Source of the DNA: a virus
DNA: 24,870 bases
Virus record (IMG/VR): IMGVR_UViG_3300034019_000940
Location: 1 to 24,870 of that record
Reading direction: 5' to 3' (one strand)
The position numbers and the translations under genes are program-made. Numbering within the stretch: the stretch's first letter is position 1; each line of letters opens with the position of its first letter. Below the pieces are notes generated by a model, which was not told the DNA's origin, ran no database searches, and was given only the letters and a program-made list of their open reading frames with translations. Shown piece by piece: positions 4,359-22,624 of this stretch.

Positions 4359-6188
4359 ATGATTCTTCTAAAAACAAACCAATTAAATAAGATTGTTGTA
4401 ACCGTTTCTCAGAACGCAGAACTTGCGAATCCTGAGTGGTTATTCTCGTTTACACATATCTTCTCAAAAAGAAGAGTAACAATGATTTTATCTAACATCT
4501 CAACACATAGAGTTAGATATGACGAGTTTGAATTTATTGAAGGACAAAATCCTGGTGAGATTGCATTTCCTTACACAGGGCAATACAACTATGGAATTTG
4601 GGAGCAGCCCGCTGGTAGTGGGAATCTTGACCCAGTGTATGCATACAACCTCGTGGAGTCAGGTATTGCGTTGTTGATTGCACAATCTGCAAACACTACG
4701 AATGATTACTTTATGGAATTCATTTCCAATGATGAAGATGATTCCAATATTATATTCGCTCCTGATGAATTAAATCCACCATCACCAACTCCAAGTGTAA
4801 CTGCGTCTCAAACTGTTACACCAACAATAACTCCATCGAATACACCGACACAACAATTTACTCCGACACCAACTCAAACACCAACGAGAACAGGAACACC
4901 TACGCCTACTACAACAACTACATTAACTTCAACGCCAACAAATACTCAAACACCTACACCTACTACTACAACCACATTGACTGCTACCCCTACACAAACT
5001 CCTACTAATACTGAAACTCCAACTAACACACCAACAAATACTACAACTCAGACCCAAACTCCAACACCATCAATTACAGCAAGTCAAACTCAGACACCAA
5101 CACCGTCTATTACGGCAAGTCAAACACAAACTCCAACTAATACTGAAACCCCTACTCCAACTCCTACAATTACAGCAAGTCAAACACAAACTCCAACACC
5201 GTCTATTACAGCAAGTCAAACTCAGACACCAACTAATACTCAAACTCCAACACAGACACAAACTCCTACAATTACAGCAAGTCAAACTCAGACACCAACA
5301 CCAAGTATAACCGCATCACAAACACAAACACCAACTAATACTCAAACTCCAACACAGACACAAACTCCTACAAGAACGGCGTCTGTTACACCAACTCCAA
5401 CAGCAACTCCACCAGCAGGTCTTACACAAGCGAATGATTATTTGACCGCTATTGTTAACGCAGGTGCTACAGGTATTACATCAACAGTTTCTGCCGCTAC
5501 ACAAACATTATTTACAAGTTTATGGTCTAACAGTTTGAACACGAAAATGATTGCGATGTATCCATTCTTGGGTGGTAATAGTAGTGGATGTAAATTCAAT
5601 GCAATTGACCCACAAGACACAAATGGTGCATACAGATTGGTCTTCAATGGTGGTGTTACATTCAATGCTTCAGGTGTTACCTTCAACGGTAATAACGGAT
5701 ACGCCAACACATATCTATCAGGAAATACAATTACTCCAAACGATAACCACTTGTCTGTCTATATGAGAGATAACACAGCAGTCAACTCGAAGACATATTT
5801 GGGTTATGCTGACGGTTCAACAAACTTCTTGATATCAAATGGTGGTGATAACAATCACTATTATTATTATGGATTAGATACTGCGGGTATTGTTAGCACA
5901 ACATCAGCAACAACAAGTGGATTGAATCTAATTTCCACTACTGCAACAACTTTCCAAAATCTTTATAGAAACGGTAGTATTGTGATAACCAATAGTGGAG
6001 CAGCAACAGGTTCTACAAATCAAGAATTATTAATCGGGGCATTAAACAATGCAGGAACAATTATTCAGTATTATGGAAATGAATATAGATTTGTTACTAT
6101 TGGATATGGATTGAGTGAAGTACAACAATCAACTCTATCTTCAATAATAAACACATTCCAAACAACTCTTGGAAGAAATACATATTAG
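4359..6188 (+). CDS. Virion fibre protein with Pro/Thr stalk and lectin-like C-terminal domain
   Basis: The 609-residue protein has three parts. Residues 1-140 form a beta-rich domain ([31 protein letters not shown]) that I associate with N-terminal virion-attachment domains in Bacteroidota phages. Residues ~140-352 are a Pro/Thr/Gln-rich low-complexity stalk containing repeated [12 protein letters not shown] units. Residues ~353-609 are Gly/Asn/Thr-rich and look like a LamG/concanavalin-like lectin fold ([42 protein letters not shown]). The architecture of anchor, flexible rod and carbohydrate-binding head suggests a fibre or capsid decoration that contacts the host surface. It starts 6 nt after a terminator. 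Domain names are judged by eye. Confidence 0.65.
4776..5415 (+). repeat. Pro/Thr-coding repeat tract
   Basis: About 640 bp encodes a Pro/Thr/Gln stalk. A 36-bp (12-residue) unit [12 protein letters not shown] recurs, interspersed with [12 protein letters not shown] variants. Copies differ at many synonymous positions, so the protein repeat is conserved better than the DNA. The opposite strand has long open frames here that are repeat shadows. Confidence 0.85.
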
Positions 6189-6411: not shown

Positions 6412-6419
6412 ATATTTAT
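6412..6419 (+). promoter_or_regulatory. ATATTTAT element before the portal gene
   Basis: The octamer sits 4 nt upstream of ATG 6424, after an A/T-rich run. The same element and spacing occur before the tail chaperone gene (ATG 19552) and the minus-strand gene. This placement argues for 6424 rather than 6418 as the portal start. Confidence 0.35.
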
Positions 6420-6423
6420 GAAT

Positions 6424-7629
6424 ATGAACGAATCTGTAAATGAAAATAATATCCTAAAAGTTTTCGATTTTGCACCCGCACAGGTGCCTCTAATTGAGGA
6501 GAACTTAATCGTAAACACAAGAACGCCATGGGTGTACTACGGGGTTGCGAACCTTGCACCTCAGGAACTTATTCGTTTATACAATACTTCTCCAACGCAT
6601 CGCGCATGTATTACTTCAAAGTGGTATGGAACGAGAGGAGAAGATATTAAATTAACATCGGGAGAAAATGATAGACTGGTAATGGTTAATTCTCTTGGAG
6701 ACAAGATGTATGACCTATGGAATAAGACGATTCTCGACTTCCTGCTCTATGGCTCGTTCGCAATAAATTGTGTATGGCGTCGTGATAGGTCTATGGGATT
6801 CGAAATGTATTACATGGATATGTCTAAATTGAGAGCAGAAAAATCTGATTTTCACGACAGAATAAATAACTGGTACTATTGTGCGGATTGGGCATTCCCG
6901 AAGAAATTCGTTCCTCGTAAATTGCCAGCATTCAATCCAAATACAGAAGAACCAAGTCAGGTTTTTGTATATTCTACTCACTCCGCAGGAAATAACTATT
7001 ATTCAACACCAACTTTTTGGGGTGCTGCCACCGCAATTTCTACTCAAATCGAAATATTCAACTGGCATTTCAACAACATTGTTAATGGATTATCTCCATC
7101 ACTTTTTGTTGGTATCAATTCAGGCGTGCCAGACCCTGAACAGCGCGAACAAATCTATAATAACCTTCTCGCAAAATATGCGGGAAGTAACACATCGGGC
7201 AAATTATTTCTTACATTCAGCGACGGAAAGGACCAAGCGCCAACCATAGAACCCATACCACATAACGGTTCTGATTCAATGTGGACAGAACTTAATGATA
7301 TGGTTCAACAAGCAATCTTAACTGCACATCAAATTTCATCACCTGAATTATTGGGAATTGTTACTCCTGGTCAGTTGGGCAATCCAGACCACCTTGAAGC
7401 TCAGGACCACTTTTTTAATTTAGTAATCAAACCTTTGCAGCGAGAAGTGAAAAGTGTATACGAAAGATTATTATTACTCCGTGATGGTAAACCTGCGGAG
7501 ATTGAAGTAGACCAATTTGAGATGGTTACGATTGCAGACAAAGCACCAATTAAGGTCGAGGAAATCGATGAGAAGAAAGATGTCTCAGTTGATGAGAATA
7601 AAAATTTGAATGAAAATATAACAGAATGA
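6424..7629 (+). CDS. Portal protein
   Basis: The 401-residue product has the order of segments expected of a phage portal. An N-terminal region with LIRLYNTSPTHRACITSKW resembles the early helix where portals carry 'hr.ci..ka'. A central core follows (LLYGSFAINCVWRRDR, then YYMDMSKLRAEKS). The later stretch FNNIVNGLSPSLFVGINSG and the segment ILTAHQISSPELLGI...LGNPDHLEAQDHFF match the 'aH.vp..llG' region and the C-terminal helices. The portal forms the dodecameric DNA gate at one capsid vertex and docks terminase. Another in-frame ATG at 6418 would add two residues. The next gene overlaps by 4 nt (ATGA), so it is in the same operon. Confidence 0.9.
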   Translation: MNESVNENNILKVFDFAPAQVPLIEENLIVNTRTPWVYYGVANLAPQELIRLYNTSPTHRACITSKWYGTRGEDIKLTSGENDRLVMVNSLGDKMYDLWNKTILDFLLYGSFAINCVWRRDRSMGFEMYYMDMSKLRAEKSDFHDRINNWYYCADWAFPKKFVPRKLPAFNPNTEEPSQVFVYSTHSAGNNYYSTPTFWGAATAISTQIEIFNWHFNNIVNGLSPSLFVGINSGVPDPEQREQIYNNLLAKYAGSNTSGKLFLTFSDGKDQAPTIEPIPHNGSDSMWTELNDMVQQAILTAHQISSPELLGIVTPGQLGNPDHLEAQDHFFNLVIKPLQREVKSVYERLLLLRDGKPAEIEVDQFEMVTIADKAPIKVEEIDEKKDVSVDENKNLNENITE

Positions 7630-9097: not shown

Positions 9098-9577
9098 ATG
9101 GCGAATCTATTCACAATAAGTATGAAGAGCGGTGTTGATACAACAATAACAAGTATATCATCAGCACCAAACCAATCAACTACTTTTACAATAACGGGTG
9201 GAACATTTCCACTTGGTGCGGGAAGTCCCGATATTACAGGAACATATACAACAATAAATGATGGTACTGGTTCTCAAACAGGAACTGTATTTATGTTTCT
9301 TGTTCAAGGTTCTGCTCACATAGATTATTTTGTAGGTGGGTCAAAAGTGTTTGATGGTGATTTTGGTAGTGGATTTGCTGAAATCCCTGGACCAATAGCG
9401 ACAAATCAAGATTTAGTTTTTAATATCTATAATATTGTTGAACCAACACCAACTCCGAGTGTAACACCTACCAATACAGGAACACCAACAAACACACCTA
9501 CCAATACAGGAACACCAACAAACACACCTACCAATACAGGAACACCAACAAACACACCTACCCCATCAAGACCTTAA
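9098..9577 (+). CDS. Small virion protein with beta domain and Pro/Thr tail
   Basis: The 159-residue product has a beta-rich N-terminal domain (~1-112; SGVDTTITSISS, FTITGGTFPLG, GSAHIDYFVGG) and a Pro/Thr/Asn tail (~113-159) built on a 10-residue PTNTGTPTNT unit. The tail resembles the stalks of the proteins at 4359 and 20300, but no terminal binding domain follows, so it may be a truncated fibre or a decoration protein. It is preceded by AAAAAAATATG, the same leader as the fibre-like gene at 22631. A 14-bp inverted repeat and a terminator follow within 160 bp, so this is the last gene of the virion block. I do not recognise the N-terminal fold. Confidence 0.6.
   Translation: MANLFTISMKSGVDTTITSISSAPNQSTTFTITGGTFPLGAGSPDITGTYTTINDGTGSQTGTVFMFLVQGSAHIDYFVGGSKVFDGDFGSGFAEIPGPIATNQDLVFNIYNIVEPTPTPSVTPTNTGTPTNTPTNTGTPTNTPTNTGTPTNTPTPSRP
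9465..9562 (+). repeat. 30-bp perfect tandem repeat
   Basis: Three identical 30-bp copies start at 9465, 9495 and 9525, followed by a partial copy. They encode a 10-residue Pro/Thr unit in frame, so copy-number change would alter tail length without breaking the gene. Identity at DNA level suggests recent expansion. Confidence 0.9.
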
Positions 9578-10223: not shown

Positions 10224-10904
10224 ATGAAATTTGAAATTGTAAAAGAACACGAATATCAGAAGACCGAGAGAGTAGGTCAGATTATCAAGTATTTTGATTT
10301 ACAGGGTGATAAAATCGTTGAGAGTTTTATCGGTGATATTGACTTAGATTTCGATTGGAATGTAGGTCTCATTGTCGGTGACTCAGGAACAGGAAAAACA
10401 ACAATCGCAAAACAATTATTCGGTGATGATATTGTTTCTGATTTGTCTTTTTCTGAGAACTCTGTTATTGATGATTTCCCAAAGAATAAAACTATTGATG
10501 AGATAATTCAAACTCTCATATCAGTTGGTTTTTCTTCACCACCAAGTTGGTTGAAACCATATTCAGTTTTATCTATGGGTGAGAAAATGAGAGTAGATTT
10601 ATGTTATTCTTTATTGATGGATAAAGACCTTATTGTTTATGATGAATTTACTTCTGTTGTTGACCGTGTTACCGCAAAGTATGGTTCTGAATTATTCTCC
10701 AATAAGGTTAGAAAACTCGGAAAGAAATTTGTTGGTATATCTTGCCATCAGGATATAGTAGAATCTATGAATCCCGATTGGATATTCGATACAAATAAAA
10801 TGGAATTTGTTATCCCTCAAAAAAAAAAGTCCAACACAGAATTGAAATCTATAAGTCAACTTATAAAGGACTCTGGAATATTTTTGGAAAGTATCACTAT
10901 CTAA
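10224..10904 (+). CDS. ABC-type ATPase domain protein (zero-frame product)
   Basis: The 226-residue product has the complete ABC ATPase motif set: Walker A GDSGTGKTT (52-60), signature LSMGEKMR (116-123), Walker B LIVYDEF (136-142, with E141 as likely catalytic base), a D-loop (SVVDR) and the H-loop histidine H175 in SCHQD. There are no membrane segments, so it is a soluble ATPase rather than a transporter subunit. In phages I recall this ATPase is fused to a C-terminal GNAT domain. Here the frame carries A AAA AAG at 10823-10829, after which the zero frame gives 24 poorly conserved residues, while the -1 frame continues into the GNAT domain. A fused product would have 362 residues. The substrate is unknown. 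Confidence 0.85.
   Translation: MKFEIVKEHEYQKTERVGQIIKYFDLQGDKIVESFIGDIDLDFDWNVGLIVGDSGTGKTTIAKQLFGDDIVSDLSFSENSVIDDFPKNKTIDEIIQTLISVGFSSPPSWLKPYSVLSMGEKMRVDLCYSLLMDKDLIVYDEFTSVVDRVTAKYGSELFSNKVRKLGKKFVGISCHQDIVESMNPDWIFDTNKMEFVIPQKKKSNTELKSISQLIKDSGIFLESITI
10823..10829 (+). other. Candidate -1 ribosomal frameshift site A AAA AAG
   Basis: The heptamer is in the correct phase of the ATPase frame (codons AAA, AAG at 10824-10829) at the end of a ten-A run (10819-10828). It is identical to the E. coli dnaX slippery sequence. A -1 slip joins the ATPase to the GNAT frame, which is open from here to 11311. A weak 6-bp stem (10850-10855 with 10860-10865) lies about 20 nt downstream, further than usual for a stimulator. 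Polymerase slippage or a miscounted homopolymer could give the same result. Confidence 0.6.
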
Positions 10905-10939
10905 GTCATAGGATTAATAACTCATCTGAAAAATTCGTT

Positions 10940-11311
10940 ATGTTCATTGACGGTCATCTTTGTGGTTTCAATGCGTGTTTGAACTTCCCACATCCTACCG
11001 TTAAGAATATGAGAAAGGAACATAGATTGGTTATTCTTCCACAATTTCAAGGACTTGGTCTTGGTTCAATTCTATCTGAGTTCTGTGGTAAATATTATAC
11101 CAATAAGGGATTAAGATTCAGAGGTACAACAACTCATCCATCTCTTATTTATAGAAGGTCTAAAAATCCTAATTGGACCTTTATATCCAAGAAAGAGAAT
11201 AAGGATTCTTATGAAAAAGATTTGATTAAAACAAGATGGTTTGCAGGTTATAGAACAACTTATACCTTCGAATACATTCCAAAAAAAGAAGAAAATGGAC
11301 AGGAAATATGA
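10940..11311 (+). CDS. GNAT acetyltransferase domain, probably expressed as a -1 frameshift extension of the ATPase
   Basis: From ATG 10940 the frame gives 123 residues with a GNAT core: LVILPQFQGLGLGSILSEF contains the acetyl-CoA-binding Q-x-x-G-x-G loop. The same frame is open upstream to the A-run at 10819-10828 and there encodes HRIEIYKS...LWNIFGKYHYL, which looks like the missing first strand and helix of the domain. A free-standing start at 10940 would therefore lack the N-terminal part of the fold. This argues for synthesis as a fusion with the ATPase. The acetyl acceptor is not predictable from sequence. The next gene overlaps its 3' end by 17 nt. Confidence 0.75.
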   Translation: MFIDGHLCGFNACLNFPHPTVKNMRKEHRLVILPQFQGLGLGSILSEFCGKYYTNKGLRFRGTTTHPSLIYRRSKNPNWTFISKKENKDSYEKDLIKTRWFAGYRTTYTFEYIPKKEENGQEI

Positions 11312-13882: not shown

Positions 13883-14035
13883 ATGAAAACACTACTCGTT
13901 AGTTCAGAAGACACCTGCGTTTGGACATTAGCACAAATCCTCAATGAAGAACAGATTTCTGGTTTGTTATGGTCTCTTATGGCTCAGGGAAAATTAAAAA
14001 AAGAATACCAAGAATTTTTTGCCGAATCAGAATAA
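13883..14035 (+). CDS. Small hypothetical protein (50 aa)
   Basis: The short frame runs from ATG 13883 to TAA 14033-14035, 5 bp after the previous stop. The product begins MKTLLVSSEDTCVWTLAQIL and continues as a helical segment (EEQISGLLWSLMAQGKLKKE). It is too short to classify. Tight spacing after the 13620 gene and a promoter directly after it (the -33 TTG lies inside its last codons) make it a plausible second gene of a two-gene unit. Confidence 0.55.
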   Translation: MKTLLVSSEDTCVWTLAQILNEEQISGLLWSLMAQGKLKKEYQEFFAESE

Positions 14036-14048
14036 TTTCCTAACTTCG
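14019..14048 (+). promoter_or_regulatory. Bacteroidota-type promoter
   Basis: TTG (14019-14021), 19-nt spacer, TAACTTCG (14041-14048), then GTATAAAATCAAGAAACA before ATG 14066. The leader is almost identical to that of the 13620 gene. Confidence 0.78.
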
Positions 14049-14065
14049 TATAAAATCAAGAAACA

Positions 14066-14284
14066 ATGAAAAAATTCCTATTGGTCGCAATCACCTCAAT
14101 TGCACTTATGTCTTGTGAGAAAACAGACATCCTTCCAGTATCTAACCAAACCACTACAACTCAACCTTGTAATGGTAAGAGAACTGTATCTGTTCAATGT
14201 GTCGGGACAACTCAGTCAGGTTCTCGTTGTAAGAATTTAACCCTATCTTGTAACTCAAAATGCCATCTCCACGGTGGTAATTAA
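14066..14284 (+). CDS. Phage lipoprotein with Cys-rich C-terminal module (72 aa)
   Basis: The product begins MKKFLLVAITSIALMSCEKT: two lysines, a hydrophobic stretch and a lipobox LMSC place the lipidated cysteine at residue 17. The mature part has a short Thr/Gln linker and a C-terminal QCVGTTQSGSRCKNL...CNSKCHLHGG segment with C45, C55, C62, C66 and H69. I recall this 'C.gtT.sG.rC......C..H.g' pattern in many small bacterial and phage proteins as a probable metal- or disulfide-stabilised knuckle. Export to the envelope of an infected cell suggests a cell-surface role such as blocking superinfection, which is inference. It has its own strong promoter. Confidence 0.75.
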   Translation: MKKFLLVAITSIALMSCEKTDILPVSNQTTTTQPCNGKRTVSVQCVGTTQSGSRCKNLTLSCNSKCHLHGGN

Positions 14285-14295
14285 AATTAATCGTT

Positions 14296-14469
14296 ATGTT
14301 ATTCAAATCTATTGTTAGAGGTTTCGGTCATACTGTTGGTTCAAGAGGAGCAAACAGAGTTATGAGGTCATCAGGTATTGATGGAATATTCAATGTGGTT
14401 TGGGGTTTTGTGAAGTGGTGTATCATCATTACCTTTATCATCGGAATGTTACAAGGTCTATTTTCTTAA
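14296..14469 (+). CDS. Small membrane protein (57 aa)
   Basis: The short frame runs from ATG 14296 to TAA 14467-14469, 11 bp after the lipoprotein gene. The first ~30 residues are basic (MLFKSIVRGF, then SRGANRVMRSSG). Residues ~33-55 form one hydrophobic segment (VVWGFVKWCIIITFIIGMLQ) consistent with a single membrane span, with the basic end likely cytoplasmic. It is probably co-transcribed with the lipoprotein. A holin is conceivable for a small one-span protein, but there is no endolysin gene beside it, so I do not name it one. Confidence 0.6.
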   Translation: MLFKSIVRGFGHTVGSRGANRVMRSSGIDGIFNVVWGFVKWCIIITFIIGMLQGLFS

Positions 14470-14487
14470 TCATTAAAAACTATAACT

Positions 14488-14790
14488 ATGACTGAATTTA
14501 TCACTCGCTTCTCTGAAGCAGACAAATGGTTCATCGATGGTATGACGAATCAATTCTTAGGACTTATATCTGACGATGATAAGGATGCTGAATGGAGTGA
14601 TGTATCCACAACTTCCTTATTTCATATGATATCCCTATACATGGAACTTCGTTCTCAACTCAGAATTAAATCTTGGATTCTCCAAAGATGGGAACAAGAC
14701 CCAAGAGGTGATGGAATTTTCCAAGATATCTATGATGAAATTTTCGAAGATTACAACGATTTTTTTGTTGAGTTAGCAAAATATAATTAA
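14488..14790 (+). CDS. Hypothetical acidic protein (100 aa)
   Basis: The product begins MTEFITRFSEADKWFIDGMT and is acidic and mostly helical (LFHMISLYMELRSQLRIKSW), ending in an Asp/Glu/Phe-rich stretch (DIYDEIFEDYNDFFVELAKY). It follows the membrane protein by 18 bp. The leader before the ATG (AACTATAACT) is identical to that of the next gene. No motif or family is recognised. The -33 and -7 boxes of the next promoter overlap its final codons. Confidence 0.65.
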   Translation: MTEFITRFSEADKWFIDGMTNQFLGLISDDDKDAEWSDVSTTSLFHMISLYMELRSQLRIKSWILQRWEQDPRGDGIFQDIYDEIFEDYNDFFVELAKYN

Positions 14791-14795
14791 CTTTG
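14765..14795 (+). promoter_or_regulatory. Bacteroidota-type promoter
   Basis: TTG (14765-14767), 20-nt spacer, TAACTTTG (14788-14795). The start of the next gene at 14851 is 55 nt further on, giving the longest leader of the promoter set. Confidence 0.7.
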
Positions 14796-14850
14796 TCTTT
14801 TAATCATCAATCAACATCGGGGACAGGACACAATCTGAACAACTATAACT

Positions 14851-15282
14851 ATGATTGGAGCAATCGCCAACCCGACCAAGAAGGTCACTATTGATTTCCC
14901 TATGTCTCAGGTAAAGGACTGTGTTCTTACCATTCCAAAGGTTTTTACCAAATATCGTATTCAATCACAGAACCCAATGTTCAATCAGTATACATTCGAA
15001 GCGTCAGAGTTCCTGTCTCTTGGTGTATTCATCGACATCAACCTCACAGAGGTTGGTCCTAACAAGACCGAGATTTCCATTGAGGTCCGTAGAAAGTTGG
15101 GAGCGTTCGACAATTGGGTTGAGGTTCAGAATGCGAACGAACATATTCAAAATATTATTACCGCCATCTCAAAGGTTTTGACTAATCCTAATGGACAGGT
15201 TCAAGAGGTTAAACAAAAATCTTTGTTACCTGAAATCATTGGATTCGTTATCGGTATCATCATCTTATTATCCTTGTTGTAG
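14851..15282 (+). CDS. Tail-anchored hypothetical protein (143 aa)
   Basis: The product begins MIGAIANPTKKVTIDFPMSQ. Residues ~10-115 alternate strands and a helix (FEASEFLSLGVFIDINLTEVG, then ISIEVRRKLGAF) in a way that suggests a small SRPBCC-like or similar alpha/beta domain. Residues ~124-143 (LLPEIIGFVIGIIILLSLL) form a C-terminal membrane anchor with almost nothing after it, so the soluble domain would face the cytoplasm. A convergent terminator follows within 20 bp. The domain assignment is by pattern only; the anchor is clear. Confidence 0.7.
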   Translation: MIGAIANPTKKVTIDFPMSQVKDCVLTIPKVFTKYRIQSQNPMFNQYTFEASEFLSLGVFIDINLTEVGPNKTEISIEVRRKLGAFDNWVEVQNANEHIQNIITAISKVLTNPNGQVQEVKQKSLLPEIIGFVIGIIILLSLL

Positions 15283-15301: not shown

Positions 15302-15332
15302 AAAACCCCTGTCGTAATGATGGGGGTTTTTT
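15302..15332. terminator. Bidirectional terminator between convergent genes
   Basis: AAAACCCC (15302-15309) pairs with GGGGTTTT (15323-15330), giving A- and T-tracts on both flanks. It can serve the + strand gene ending at 15282 and the minus-strand gene ending at 15331. Confidence 0.85.
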
Positions 15333-15687
15333 ATTTACAGTCCTCCCAAGTGAAGTGTTTTACATTTTTCGCAGGACGGTCTTTTAAGGTCAAATTAGGG
15401 TGTTTTTTTACAAATTGATAGTGAATATCATCTGACGGATTATAACCGATTTTAGATAGGATTCTGTAAGTGTGGCACCATTCTGACTTCCTGATACCTT
15501 TCATGTCTATGTGACTTGAATCAACATTTCTGTTTTCATCATTTTTTGCTCTATAACCTTGACGATACAATTTACCATACTCACTCTCACACACTCTACA
15601 TTGCCCATTGAGTCCATCGTAGTTGAGTTTTCTTTTACCGAATTCTTCAAGTGGTTTTTCTATTCCACATTTCTTACATTTTTTCAT
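15331..15687 (-). CDS. Zinc-ribbon protein, HNH-endonuclease-like N-terminus without visible HNH core
   Basis: This is the only convincing minus-strand gene. The 118-residue product begins MKKCKKCGIEKPLEEFGKRK, with a second pair CRVC near residue 30: a CxxC...CxxC ribbon of the kind that precedes HNH nuclease domains. The rest (HIDMKGIRKSEWCHTYRILS, then KKHPNLTLKDRPAKNVKHFT) does not show the usual H-N-H residues, so it is either a degenerate or shortened homing-type nuclease or a DNA/RNA-binding regulator. It is convergent with the small-gene region and divergent from the DUF6291 gene. An ATATTTAT element lies 4 nt before its start. Its stop lies inside the terminator stem flank. Confidence 0.7.
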   Translation of the reverse strand: MKKCKKCGIEKPLEEFGKRKLNYDGLNGQCRVCESEYGKLYRQGYRAKNDENRNVDSSHIDMKGIRKSEWCHTYRILSKIGYNPSDDIHYQFVKKHPNLTLKDRPAKNVKHFTWEDCK

Positions 15688-17971: not shown

Positions 17972-18398
17972 AAAGTTAATGACCTTTCCAATTAAGGATT
18001 ATCCGAACATTCAGGTTAACTCAGGTACAATGGATAGAGACACGATGAAAGCGTGTTACCTTGAATTCAAAGGAACAATTCAGACTGATGGTGAGGATAA
18101 GATAAAAGACATTAACAGGGTCTGTAAAAACATTTCAAGGTCAATATCAAACTCAATCAATACAGATTTGTTTTATGATAAGTTTCTTTGTTCCAAAGAT
18201 ATTTCAGAATCATTTGTCTATACAGGTAAATCATATACAAAGATTGAATACACATTATTCTTGAAACAACCTCTACTCAAAGAACAATTGACCAGTGAAC
18301 TAAACAAACTAACAGACAAGGTTTGGACCGAATCAATTCAAGACACATCATCAGTTAAGTTTTATAAAAACATCATATCAAAGAGAAAGTATAAGTGA
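17940..18398 (+). CDS. Hypothetical protein between terminase subunits (152 aa)
   Basis: The product begins MKMKNPSQTNRKLM; starts at 17946 or 17979 (MTFPIKDYPN) are also possible, the latter leaving no overlap with the small terminase gene. The sequence alternates beta and helix (NIQVNSGTMDRDTMKACYLE, YTGKSYTKIEYTLFLKQPLL) with a Lys-rich end (FYKNIISKRKYK). No family or motif is recognised. The stop overlaps the GTG start of the large terminase by 4 nt (GTGA), so translation is coupled and a packaging-related role is plausible. Confidence 0.6.
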   Translation: MKMKNPSQTNRKLMTFPIKDYPNIQVNSGTMDRDTMKACYLEFKGTIQTDGEDKIKDINRVCKNISRSISNSINTDLFYDKFLCSKDISESFVYTGKSYTKIEYTLFLKQPLLKEQLTSELNKLTDKVWTESIQDTSSVKFYKNIISKRKYK

Positions 18399-19534
18399 AG
18401 ATACAGACCACAAGAGTGTTTGAAGACCTATTAAATTCAGACAAGAGGATTAATGTATTTCAGGGTTCTTCTCGTGCATCCAAGACCTATAACATTCTTA
18501 TATTTCTAATCTACAAACTTCTACAAGAGGAGAACAAAACATTATCCATTGTAAGAAAAACATTACCCGCATTGAAGGGGAGCGTGCTTCGAGACCTCAA
18601 AGAAATTTTATTGAAGTTCGAGTTATTTGATTCTGAGAAGTGGCATTCCGTTGATGGTTATTTTGAATTGGGGTCAAATATCATTGAATGGTTTTCAGTT
18701 GATGATGAGACAAAAATCAGAGGTAGAAAAAGAGATTACCTATTCATCAATGAAGCGACAGAACTATCCTATGACGAATACATCCAACTCGTACTGAGAA
18801 CATCAGACACAATTGTGTTGGACCTTAACCCATCATTATGGAAATCATGGATATATGATTTGGAAGGACAACCTGATGTGAAGTATAACATTGTTACATT
18901 CAAGGACAATCCATTCTTACCACAGGTCCAAGTTGATGAGATATTGAAACTCAGAGACAAGGACGCCAACCTGTGGCGCATCTTTGGTATGGGTATGAAA
19001 GGTGTTCCCACCAAGATGGTATTCAATCACCATCAACTATATGTTGATTTACCAATAGGGTGTTCTTTCTTAGGTTATGGAATTGACTGGGGATACTCAG
19101 ACCCATCAACACTCGTTGGTGTTTGGAAACTCGGTGATTCAATTTATTGTGAGGAGTTCTTGTATCTAAAAAATGTGACCATACCTGATTTCATTTATAG
19201 GATAAAAGATTTGGGGATTAACTTGAAAGATGATTTTATTGCAGATAGTGCTAACCCTCAGGCGATAGAAGAACTTAGAAGACAAGGAATAAATTGCAAA
19301 CCTGTTAAGAAAAATTCGATACTTCATGGAATTGATTTAATTAAGAGGTCAAACTTTTATGTGAAGTTTGATTCATTTAACCTACAAAATGAATTACAAT
19401 CCTACATATGGAAGACAGATAAAAACGGTAATAACCTTGATGAACCGCAACCAGGGTCCGACCACTTAATAGACGGCATTCGTTATGTGATGGAGATGAA
19501 GGTTGGAAGAAATCAATGGATTGGTATAATGTAA
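18395..19534 (+). CDS. Terminase large subunit
   Basis: The 379-residue protein starts at GTG 18395, overlapping the previous stop. It shows a Walker A-like GSSRASKT (24-31), a Walker B with the catalytic carboxylate in YLFINEATEL (E120), and nuclease residues of the RNase H-like fold: D231 in GIDWGYSDP, D284 in IADSANP, and a C-terminal DHLIDGIRY with D356, H357 and D360. This is the packaging motor ATPase plus DNA-cutting nuclease that docks on the portal. Length is slightly short for the family but both domains are complete. It overlaps the upstream AT-rich leader of the tail chaperone gene at its 3' end. Confidence 0.92.
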   Translation: MKIQTTRVFEDLLNSDKRINVFQGSSRASKTYNILIFLIYKLLQEENKTLSIVRKTLPALKGSVLRDLKEILLKFELFDSEKWHSVDGYFELGSNIIEWFSVDDETKIRGRKRDYLFINEATELSYDEYIQLVLRTSDTIVLDLNPSLWKSWIYDLEGQPDVKYNIVTFKDNPFLPQVQVDEILKLRDKDANLWRIFGMGMKGVPTKMVFNHHQLYVDLPIGCSFLGYGIDWGYSDPSTLVGVWKLGDSIYCEEFLYLKNVTIPDFIYRIKDLGINLKDDFIADSANPQAIEELRRQGINCKPVKKNSILHGIDLIKRSNFYVKFDSFNLQNELQSYIWKTDKNGNNLDEPQPGSDHLIDGIRYVMEMKVGRNQWIGIM

Positions 19535-20292: not shown

Positions 20293-20300
20293 ACAAGTAA
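20044..20300 (+). CDS. Tail assembly chaperone, -1 frame extension
   Basis: This frame has no good independent start (the first candidate is GTG 20103) and is open from the slippery site. It encodes [19 protein letters not shown], an acidic DVDDDTSS linker, then [17 protein letters not shown] and [20 protein letters not shown]. The FxKxWGWYxxIxxLA pattern is shared with tail-chaperone products of Bacteroidota phages as I remember them. Its stop codon TAA shares a base with the next ATG (TAATG at 20298-20302), the tight spacing expected when this frame is the functional end. It would be made as a fusion with the upstream 160-odd residues. Confidence 0.65.
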
Positions 20301-22624
20301 TGACTCCAATCAATATATCAGGTTTAACTTGGTGGAATCAATATAGTAATCCATCATTTCTAAATTTATCAGGTAATGAAATATTAAGTGTAATTGATGG
20401 ATTAAATTCAACAACCTACTTTCAAACAGAAATTGGTAACAGAGTAAAATTCCAAAATGATATTTATTCTGCAACCACCTCAGGTTTCAGTGGTGGAACA
20501 CTTAATGTAGGAACAAATAGGATGTCCTCACTGAATGGACAATACTCAGGCACATCCGATTTTACAATTTTTACAAGATATATTTTTACAGGAACTGCAA
20601 GTGATGATGTTATTTGTTCTTCTGATGCTGGTGGTGGAATAAATGGTCAATTATATGATGGAACAACAGTCCCTTACAGATGGTTTCAAAATAAGATTAC
20701 AGGTTCAAATATAGAATATAATATTTGGGCAGACCCAAATACTGCTGACGGGTTTGTAAATTTTAATCAAACTTTAACAGCAAATACTTGGATTGACCAA
20801 GCATTGAGATGTTATCAAGATGGTTCACTTTATAGAATTGAGTTATGGATTGATAATGTATTAGTTAATTCAAACTCCACGACATTTACTTCTGTACCAC
20901 CAGTATTAAATCCTGGTATTGTTGTTGCAACTTCATTCAACGGTAGTATAGCGGAACAGTTTTGGTTTAATAAAAAATTGGATTCATCTGAACTAACACA
21001 GATGTTTGATTATCTTGTTCAAAGATATGACGCACCGATTATCACACCAACACCTACACCAACGATAACTCAAACATCAACTCCTACTCCTACATCACAA
21101 ACCCCAACTCCAACTCCTACACAAACAGGAACACCTAACATAACACCAACCCCATCATCAACAGGGATTCCACAACTTGGAATTAACTTCAAGACCATCG
21201 CTGATGATTTCAAATACTTAGCCAACAAACACAAACAAATCAATTCGTTTGGTATTGGTGATACAGACCAATTGGGTTATCTAATTCAGTCAAGAGACAA
21301 ACAAGAGAACCCATCAGATAACTCACCATACTTCCCACTACTTTATGTTGTTCCATCTAATATTAAGAATGACCTTAGATTCAAAACTTGGACATTCAAT
21401 GTCGTAACACTCGATATAGTTGAAAGGGATTTAGCGAACTCACTTGATACATTATCTGATACCTTACAAATCTTGAATGATGTTATAAGTCAATTCAGAT
21501 TATCTGTAACAAACAATCAGGGTAATTTTAACACACTCTATTATCTTGATGATACGGTTCAATGTAACCCCTTCCAAGAGAAGTATCAGGACTTATGTAA
21601 TGGATGGAATGGATTATTACAAATCAAAACTAAGACCCCATTAGACAGATGTGCTGCTGCGTTTAATACATTTACAGGGACACCAATCTATCACGAAGGA
21701 ATCAACCTAAGAACCTTCATATATGATTTCCAATTGTTAGCAGACCATCACAAACAAATCAATTCATTTGGTTGGGGTGACTTCGATGATTTCTCTTACA
21801 ATGTAGATTCAAGAGACAAACAAGATAACCCAACATATAATCCACCATATTATCCTTATATGTATGTGATTCCAAACAACGCAACACAAGAGTTTGGATT
21901 TATGACTTATGAGTTTAATATCATCATTGGAGATATTGTGGATAGAGATTTGAACAATATGATTGATGGATGGTCAGATACAAACCAAATCCTTGATGAT
22001 ATCATTTCTCAATTTAGATTGTCTGTAACAGATTCACTTGGAAACTTTAATCAGGATTATTATCTCGATGATATGGTTGACTGTTCACCATTCATTGAGA
22101 AGTATGATGATATGTTAATTGGTTGGACTGCAACTCTTAGAATACAAGTTAAGACACCTCTTGATAGATGTGATGCAGCGTTTGATACAATGACTGGTCC
22201 TGAACCAACACCAAATCCAACATTGACTCCAACACCAACAGGAACATTAATACCATCACCTACCCCAACTAATACTGAGACACCAACTCCTACTCCTACA
22301 ATCACAGATACTCCTACACCGACTCCTACAATTACGGACACTCCAACATCAACTCCAACACCAACAATAACAGACACTCCAACATCAACTCCAACCCCTA
22401 CAATTACTGCGTCACAGACACCTACAATAACCGCATCTCCAACAGAGACATCAACACCAACGCCTACATTAACTGCATCCCCAACTCCAACAATTACTGC
22501 GAGTCCAACACCAACAATCAACCCAACACCAACTCCTACACCAACTCCACCATCAGGAGCACAACTATGGAACACAAACCCAGATACTTGGGATAATGAA
22601 AATCAACAATGGAATTTAATCTAA
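20300..22624 (+). CDS. Large tail protein: lectin-like domain, Pro/Thr linkers and a duplicated tail-terminator-like domain
   Basis: The 774-residue protein has five parts. Residues 1-245 resemble a LamG-like lectin ([52 protein letters not shown]). A Pro/Thr linker follows (~248-290). Residues ~294-455 and ~467-632 are two copies of one domain, 173 codons apart, each with KHKQINSFG or [14 protein letters not shown]-[ED]-[15 protein letters not shown] or [18 protein letters not shown] and KTPLDRC. A long Pro/Thr stalk (~634-755) and a short Trp-rich end ([15 protein letters not shown]) close it. In other Bacteroidota phages I recall the repeated domain as a single-domain, tail-terminator-like protein. 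Here it is doubled and fused to a lectin. Confidence 0.7.
21041..21170 (+). repeat. Pro/Thr-coding linker tract
   Basis: About 130 bp encoding [20 protein letters not shown]-type sequence between the lectin-like domain and the duplicated domain of the 774-residue protein. Confidence 0.8.
21179..22196 (+). repeat. Tandem domain duplication within the 774-aa gene
   Basis: Copies begin at 21179 (GINFKT) and 21698 (GINLRT), 519 bp apart and in the same frame. The proteins match over about 160 residues, while the DNA has diverged at many positions, so the duplication is not recent. Confidence 0.8.
22200..22555 (+). repeat. Pro/Thr-coding stalk tract
   Basis: About 355 bp encoding [18 protein letters not shown] and TITASPT units. 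Its TITASQT motif also occurs in the stalk at 4776-5415, but with different codons. Confidence 0.85.

Follow-up and report, generated by a model that had tools for sequence, protein, structure and literature searches.

The phage lipoprotein P0001 carries at its C-terminal end a module of three cysteines and one histidine (CCCH), and the occurrence of its C-x9-C-x10-C-x2-H pattern in this protein is far above chance. The leading reading, to be taken as tentative, is that P0001 may be a periplasmic and probably zinc-binding lipoprotein that acts on DNA crossing the cell envelope.

The DNA analysed, termed the window, is the whole virus record IMGVR_UViG_3300034019_000940 (24,870 bases). Genes for TerL and the portal protein (Table 1) show that it belongs to a tailed phage. 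Of 846 records, the 20 listed as matching TerL are Flavobacterium phages at 33% identity, which makes a Bacteroidota host probable. Among the window proteins scanned (a part of all ORFs) none could be recognised as an integrase or repressor, and an Rfam search of the window gave no match. Around the lipoprotein gene lie small ORFs, a gene of endonuclease VII/HNH type and a DUF6291 gene.

Table 1. Positions in the window of the features discussed
Feature	Position	Strand	Remarks
Portal gene	6418-7629		
Putative Bacteroidota-type promoter, TTTG-N19-TAACTTCG	14018-14048	+	Ends 18 nt before the lipoprotein ATG
P0001, 72-aa lipoprotein	14066-14284	+	Signal peptide; lipobox LMSC17; linker 18-44; module 45-72
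CCCH module, C45-x9-C55-x10-C66-x2-H69, end HGGN	14198-14281	+	DUF5763/HGG_STG relative
P0002, 57-aa one-span protein	14296-14469	+	Basic N-terminal part; hydrophobic stretch about residues 41-57
100-aa ORF	14488-14790	+	No clear hydrophobic stretch; of the relatives compared, only L002 and L013 match
Putative promoter, TTTG-N20-TAACTTTG	14764-14795	+	56 nt before the P0003 ATG
P0003, 143 aa	14851-15282	+	Helix-grip-like domain about residues 4-117; C-terminal membrane helix 126-142
TerL gene	18395-19534		Terminase_3, 65 bits

Other parts of the record deserve mention. The endonuclease VII/HNH-like gene (15331-15687) is on the minus strand, with its neighbours on the opposite strand, and it stays near the same place in relatives. 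An ABC-type ATPase ORF and a GNAT-like ORF (10224-11311), in different frames, correspond to the N- and C-terminal portions of a single family, phrog_11143, and are perhaps a fused gene that is split in this phage. Tracts of Thr-Pro repeats are found in three ORFs (4359-6188, 9098-9577 and 20300-22624).

Gene and conservation of the lipoprotein

P0001 begins with MKK and a hydrophobic stretch, followed by the lipobox, a linker with several threonines and the C-terminal Cys/His module; the layout, signal peptide and lipobox included, was read by inspection. All nine aligned sequences have a lipobox signal peptide (LMSC, IVSC, MVSC or LQSC after MKK and a hydrophobic stretch), which supports the envelope targeting proposed for this protein by a sequence-only reading of the same DNA.

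Scans of the viral collection find the gene in 12 other contigs (L002-L009, L021-L023 and L101), at 55-99% identity in the first 11. The lipoproteins of L004 and L005 are identical, as are those of L021 and L022, and contigs L010-L012, which match only at residues 1-17, were left out of the count. Eleven of the 12 keep an intact lipobox and module. The exception is L007, in which the lipoprotein N-terminus is fused in frame with P0002 (L007:821-1156) and the module is gone, either by a true deletion or by an assembly error. The module may therefore be dispensable, unless this contig is misassembled.

Cysteines occupy positions 17, 35, 45, 55, 62 and 66 of P0001, and histidines positions 67 and 69. 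Among the nine aligned sequences, that of the window included, C17, C45, C55, C66 and H69 are invariant, C35, C62 and H67 vary, and HGGN is the C-terminal end in every case. The C/C/C/C/H arrangement that had been described is thus literally present in P0001, but the conserved set is C/C/C/H; as a functional module C/C/C/C/H is rejected, because C62 and C35 vary. Apart from the signal peptide, the module is the best conserved part of the protein. Values of dN/dS are 0.10-0.55 across 28 pairs of eight sequences (for the window, 0.06/0.22 against G003, 0.28/0.88 against L008 and 0.30/0.94 against G004), and by this measure P0001 is judged to evolve under purifying selection.

The CCCH module and its relatives

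Only one of the 219 stop-to-stop frames of at least 40 aa in the window contains C-x9-C-x10-C-x2-H, and this is the frame of P0001. Shuffling the residues of all frames gives an expectation of 0.019 per window, and when the residues after Cys17 are shuffled, 54 of 100,000 shuffles contain the motif.

Two described families come close. DUF5763 (PF19067) has the same spacing, a glycine three residues before the second cysteine, a C-terminal place and often an exported carrier. However, PF19067 (gathering cut-off 26.3 bits) does not pick up the phage modules tried, with no match at E<=10 for P0001, its isolated module, L023 or L009, and these modules end in HGGN, whereas most host rows end in the histidine and 0-4 other residues. 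HGG_STG (NCBIfam NF041373) shares the Cys/His frame and the HGG with the phage sequences; it scores P0001 at 21.1 bits, and P0001 with five homologues at 21.0-26.4 bits, all below the cut-off of 29. P0001 stops at HGGN and so has no STG part, and HGGxSTG is absent from all nine aligned phage sequences, which share that end. Pasteurella phage Pm86 has HGGKSTG, and by eye no signal peptide. In Pfam neither the complete P0001 nor the window's module alone matches any family. As judged from sequence, the P0001 module is related to DUF5763 and HGG_STG, yet under both cut-offs. Neither 'HGGxSTG' nor 'DUF5763' is mentioned in the papers searched.

A module profile (A6) comprises 28 modules, five of them phage rows of the P0001 group and 23 others, hand-picked against near-copies. 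All 28, the five phage modules included, share the residues C, G, C, C and H without exception. L023 (L031 in the module spacing list) has one additional residue in the first gap; the pattern behind that list allowed 8-10 and 8-12 residues, and other spacings could not show up. DUF5763 is matched at E<=10 by 21 of the 28, the window's own module not being among them, and there are weak matches to the zinc-finger families Zf_WRKY19 (6), zf-primase (6), zf-TRM13_CCCH (3) and zf-C3Hc3H (3). Three invariant cysteines and one histidine fit metal binding better than disulfides, and the module is probably zinc-binding. For P0001 the AlphaFold2 model has a pLDDT of 50, too low to be usable, and neither P0001 nor profile A6 has a match among solved structures.

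Ligands of this kind might also serve metal handling, with the module buffering or delivering periplasmic zinc as a fitness gene for the infected cell. The conservation of the three cysteines and the histidine agrees with this, as does the extra Cys-rich segment seen in some exported host carriers. Yet there is one site per protein, its zinc-finger spacing is structural-looking, and no metal gene or membrane transporter is among the window proteins scanned (part of the ORFs), which show no more than an ABC-type ATPase ORF 3.2 kb upstream, beside a GNAT-like ORF. Metal handling is accordingly a very doubtful role for P0001.

A scan of a genome collection with P0001 gave two loci, L024 and L025, the latter matching residues 1-39 only. 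L024 comes from a Salibacteraceae MAG; Pfam identifies it as an Endonuclease_NS protein, and it bears two tandem modules. The first is DUF5763 above the cut-off (29.3 vs 26.3 bits), and the second, the last, is the closest bacterial match, with 26 of 35 residues identical to the phage module. Third codon positions agree in 12 of the 35, and therefore the link between the two is not recent. In a module tree of 32 columns, in which 17 of the 25 inner branches are open, the last L024 module falls within the phage clade (support 95/84), and 4% of bootstrap trees separate the phage rows from all other rows by a single branch.

The module profile matches 33 of 296 genomes of the phylum at E<=0.01. 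At the same threshold PF19067 matches 20 of the 296, eight of these above the cut-off, and none of 14 control genomes. Under a simple hydrophobicity rule, 13 of 20 module carriers (E<=1e-4) have a signal-like start, a count that excludes the phage row L031 and matches at E >1e-4 and scores L030 negative though its start falls off its contig; the corresponding figures for control frames, which are stop-to-stop frames and in many cases no genes, are 75 of 242 (130-600 aa) and 105 of 631 (80-400 aa). Bacteroidota modules appear mostly to end exported proteins, i.e. DNA/RNA non-specific endonucleases, secreted proteins and small lipoproteins. Among carriers at E<=1e-4 are L033, an Endonuclease_NS protein by Pfam, L049, the same by a DRGH/DKGH motif read by eye, secreted Cys-rich 'KYHxxxC' proteins and the 74-aa lipoprotein L039. 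A search with L039, which matches 22 of 123 genomes of its order, adds L117, Endonuclease_NS-like by its DRGH/DKGH motif (by eye) and with two modules, and the lipoproteins L112 (about 79 aa) and L106, whose lipoboxes were read by eye. The surroundings of L112 are chromosomal-looking, also by eye. L112 and L039, lipoproteins of the Bacteroidota phylum, are like P0001 in their lipobox, short linker, single C-terminal module and length of about 74-79 aa, and differ in linker and tail.

The sequence-only reading had considered an outward-facing knuckle to be new for a lipoprotein that excludes superinfecting phages. For exported proteins generally the knuckle is not new, with 13 of 20 host carriers signal-like and small lipoproteins among them; as far as sequence can tell, it is already in use on exported proteins of Bacteroidota, and P0001 is a maintained protein that is less unusual than first thought. 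To our knowledge, a CCCH module in phage superinfection exclusion would still be new.

Two further carriers of the viral collection were read by eye: L166, a lipoprotein with two modules that is taken for an Endonuclease_NS from its DRGH/DKGH motif, and L102, a single-module protein of GIY-YIG-like type. In Streptomyces phages, proteins annotated as HNH endonucleases match the module weakly (E 0.02-0.4; two were read), and plasmids gave one weak match, an HGGxSTG protein. A viral scan with three host lipoprotein modules returned four loci, L166 to L169, of which L167 is a large protein with a C-terminal module, L168 a secreted 'KYHxxxC' protein and L169 a protein with an internal module. None of the four is a small lipoprotein, and further stand-alone phage lipoproteins of the host type were not found there.

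The nucleases L024 and L166 resemble P0001 in having a C-terminal module of the same frame, together with a lipobox in L166 (by eye) and an HGGN end in the second copy of L024; the phage protein differs in having one module only and no nuclease domain. An end of HGG and one residue, as in phage, is found in three host rows of 35 (one row being phage), and all three are nucleases: L030, which is L024, L033 and L117. The nucleases L049 and L166 lack it. A recognised nuclease domain is missing from many exported carriers, and therefore the nuclease link may be incidental.

Perhaps P0001 is a passenger gene, captured from the end of a host lipoprotein or nuclease and without a strong role in the phage cycle. 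This would be in keeping with a nuclease end as the closest bacterial module, with the absence of the module from L007 and with the different place of the gene in contig G005, but not with the dN/dS values or the intact gene in 11 of 12 other contigs, and a passenger is rather improbable.

Putative promoters and neighbouring genes

The Bacteroidota promoter consensus is TTTG/TANNTTTG, and boxes in the window fit it (PMC6847099). A pattern chosen post hoc, after the upstream regions of three genes had been viewed (TTTG-N17-21-TAACTT[CT]G), has five sites on the plus strand vs none in 100 shuffles. The strict consensus TTTG-N17-21-TANNTTTG has two plus-strand sites vs 0.4 expected (at most 3 in 100 shuffles), which is not significant alone, and the looser TTG-N17-21-TANNTT[CT]G has 10 vs 1.7 expected (at most 5 in shuffles). 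TANNTT[CT]G precedes the lipoprotein gene in six of nine sequences, and one-base variants, read by eye, do so in the other three. The lipoprotein gene would have its own putative promoter of Bacteroidota type. The separate promoters that had been suggested for these genes are seen as putative boxes before the lipoprotein gene and P0003, but the TAACTT[CT]G pattern is not found before P0002.

The five boxes, with N19 or N20 spacers, lie on one strand between 12117 and 14795, and four of them end 15-18 nt before small ORFs. A leader element, TCGGGGACAGGACACAATCTGAACAA (14817-14842), is situated 8 nt before the P0003 ATG and is nearly unchanged in nine of ten sequences, the window included; it has no Rfam match and no stable fold. 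Despite this conserved leader, synonymous changes in P0003 between the window and L008, G004 or G005 are too many to estimate.

ORF calls and inspection confirm the lipobox protein, the one-span basic protein and the tail-anchored protein reported earlier as a cluster, but the three genes do not form a conserved unit. P0002, which starts 12 nt past the lipoprotein stop, has matches in near relatives alone; none was seen in L008, G004, G005 (20,000 of 22,727 bases compared) or G006, all of which retain the lipoprotein. The gap between the two genes is 274 bases in L002 vs 11 in the window. P0003 has no match in G006 (possibly a fragment); in G005, where the lipoprotein gene is at another place, 2.2 kb separate the two. 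Gene order was compared by blastp at E 1e-3 with ORFs of at least 40 aa, and some records are fragments, so that absent genes may fall outside them. A conserved three-gene cassette is rejected, given the relatives without a P0002 match and the distance of P0003 in G005.

The predicted model of P0003 shows a helix-grip-like domain and a terminal membrane helix (pLDDT 80), with Z scores of 11.6 to a PR-10 protein and 10.5 to the BamC N-domain. No function was drawn from the structure, as PR-10 allergens, the BamC N-domain, KA1 domains and others match alike. Since the helix is at the very C-terminus and is preceded by basic residues, the modelled domain is probably cytoplasmic, on the inner membrane. 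The basic part of P0002 is probably also inside (N-in), as its charge indicates. With the soluble parts of both proteins probably cytoplasmic, P0001 would be the sole one of the three to have a domain on the outer side of the inner membrane.

Prevotella phage Lak-A2 has a membrane protein (L126, 487-1326) with a DUF5763-like module at the C-terminus and a P0002-like N-terminus. The pairwise match of P0002 to that N-terminus has E 4e-4, for a pair chosen by eye. Further searches did not uphold a connection of P0002 with the module: phage matches to P0002 have E values of 1 or worse, P0002 against 198 genomes gave 16 with weak matches that were chance-like on reading (best E 0.004), and the N-termini of both proteins against 247 genomes gave 21 with weak matches (best E 0.003), many FabI-like by eye.

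Small outer-membrane lipoproteins serve as o-spanins in other phages, and a one-span protein directly downstream raises the question of whether P0001 is the outer-membrane subunit of a spanin paired with P0002. However, the span of P0002 is C-terminal and leaves no periplasmic domain, P0002 is unmatched in the four relatives named above that keep the lipoprotein, and P0001 itself has no C-terminal span; a lysis role is thus most improbable.

Expected placement in the envelope and possible role

Surface export signals reported for Bacteroidetes lipoproteins are K-(D/E)2, Q-A-(D/E)2, SDDDD and SDDFE, defined in three other species; C. canimorsus needs at least K-(D/E)2 or Q-A-(D/E)2, KD alone being insufficient (PMC5080379). 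Read by eye, none of these follows the lipid-bearing cysteine in any of the nine sequences (CEKTD, CSKSD or CSKDV). One would expect P0001 to face the periplasm, and the outward facing first proposed for the knuckle is not borne out as far as these signals go.

A small, periplasm-facing phage lipoprotein, as P0001 is predicted to be, brings to mind T5 Llp and Cor. Llp is such a lipoprotein and jams FhuA, and its gene adjoins the receptor-binding pb5 gene (PMC9586334). Were P0001 to exclude other phages in this way, it would bind an outer-membrane receptor from the periplasmic side and the module would be a compact scaffold only; its size, predicted lipidation and own putative promoter would suit that role. 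But no receptor-binding protein is recognisable among the P0001 neighbours scanned, though none was identified in any other part of this phage either. PHROGs, through which the comparison was made, detect no kinship with Llp or Cor, P0001 matching only families of unknown function, and weakly (E 0.05 or worse). In addition, the best-conserved part of P0001 is a zinc-finger-like module common to unrelated bacterial proteins, which is unexpected in a receptor-specific binder. Receptor blocking is thus an unlikely role.

Three points, the link to nucleases, the zinc-finger frame and the predicted periplasmic location, hint instead at an action on DNA in the envelope. In this tentative scheme P0001 would be made from its own host-type promoter, become lipidated and sit at the periplasmic face of the outer (or inner) membrane, where its module would bind zinc and contact nucleic acid. 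It may then interfere with DNA that crosses the envelope, either by excluding the DNA of later phages or by competing with host nucleases that bear the module. Superinfection exclusion by P0001, the role first proposed, is possible; competition with nucleases suggests itself as the bolder form of the same action. Taken furthest, P0001 would be a catalytically empty mimic of an envelope-anchored, module-bearing host nuclease, occupying its DNA or docking sites in the periplasm and thereby protecting incoming phage DNA or trapping that of competing phages, a version that is itself quite doubtful.

The findings connect an envelope gene of a phage with the zinc-finger-like module present on exported nucleases and lipoproteins of Bacteroidota. 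If the module binds DNA in the periplasm, P0001 would offer a handle on how phages and hosts alike deal with DNA that crosses the envelope in Bacteroidota.
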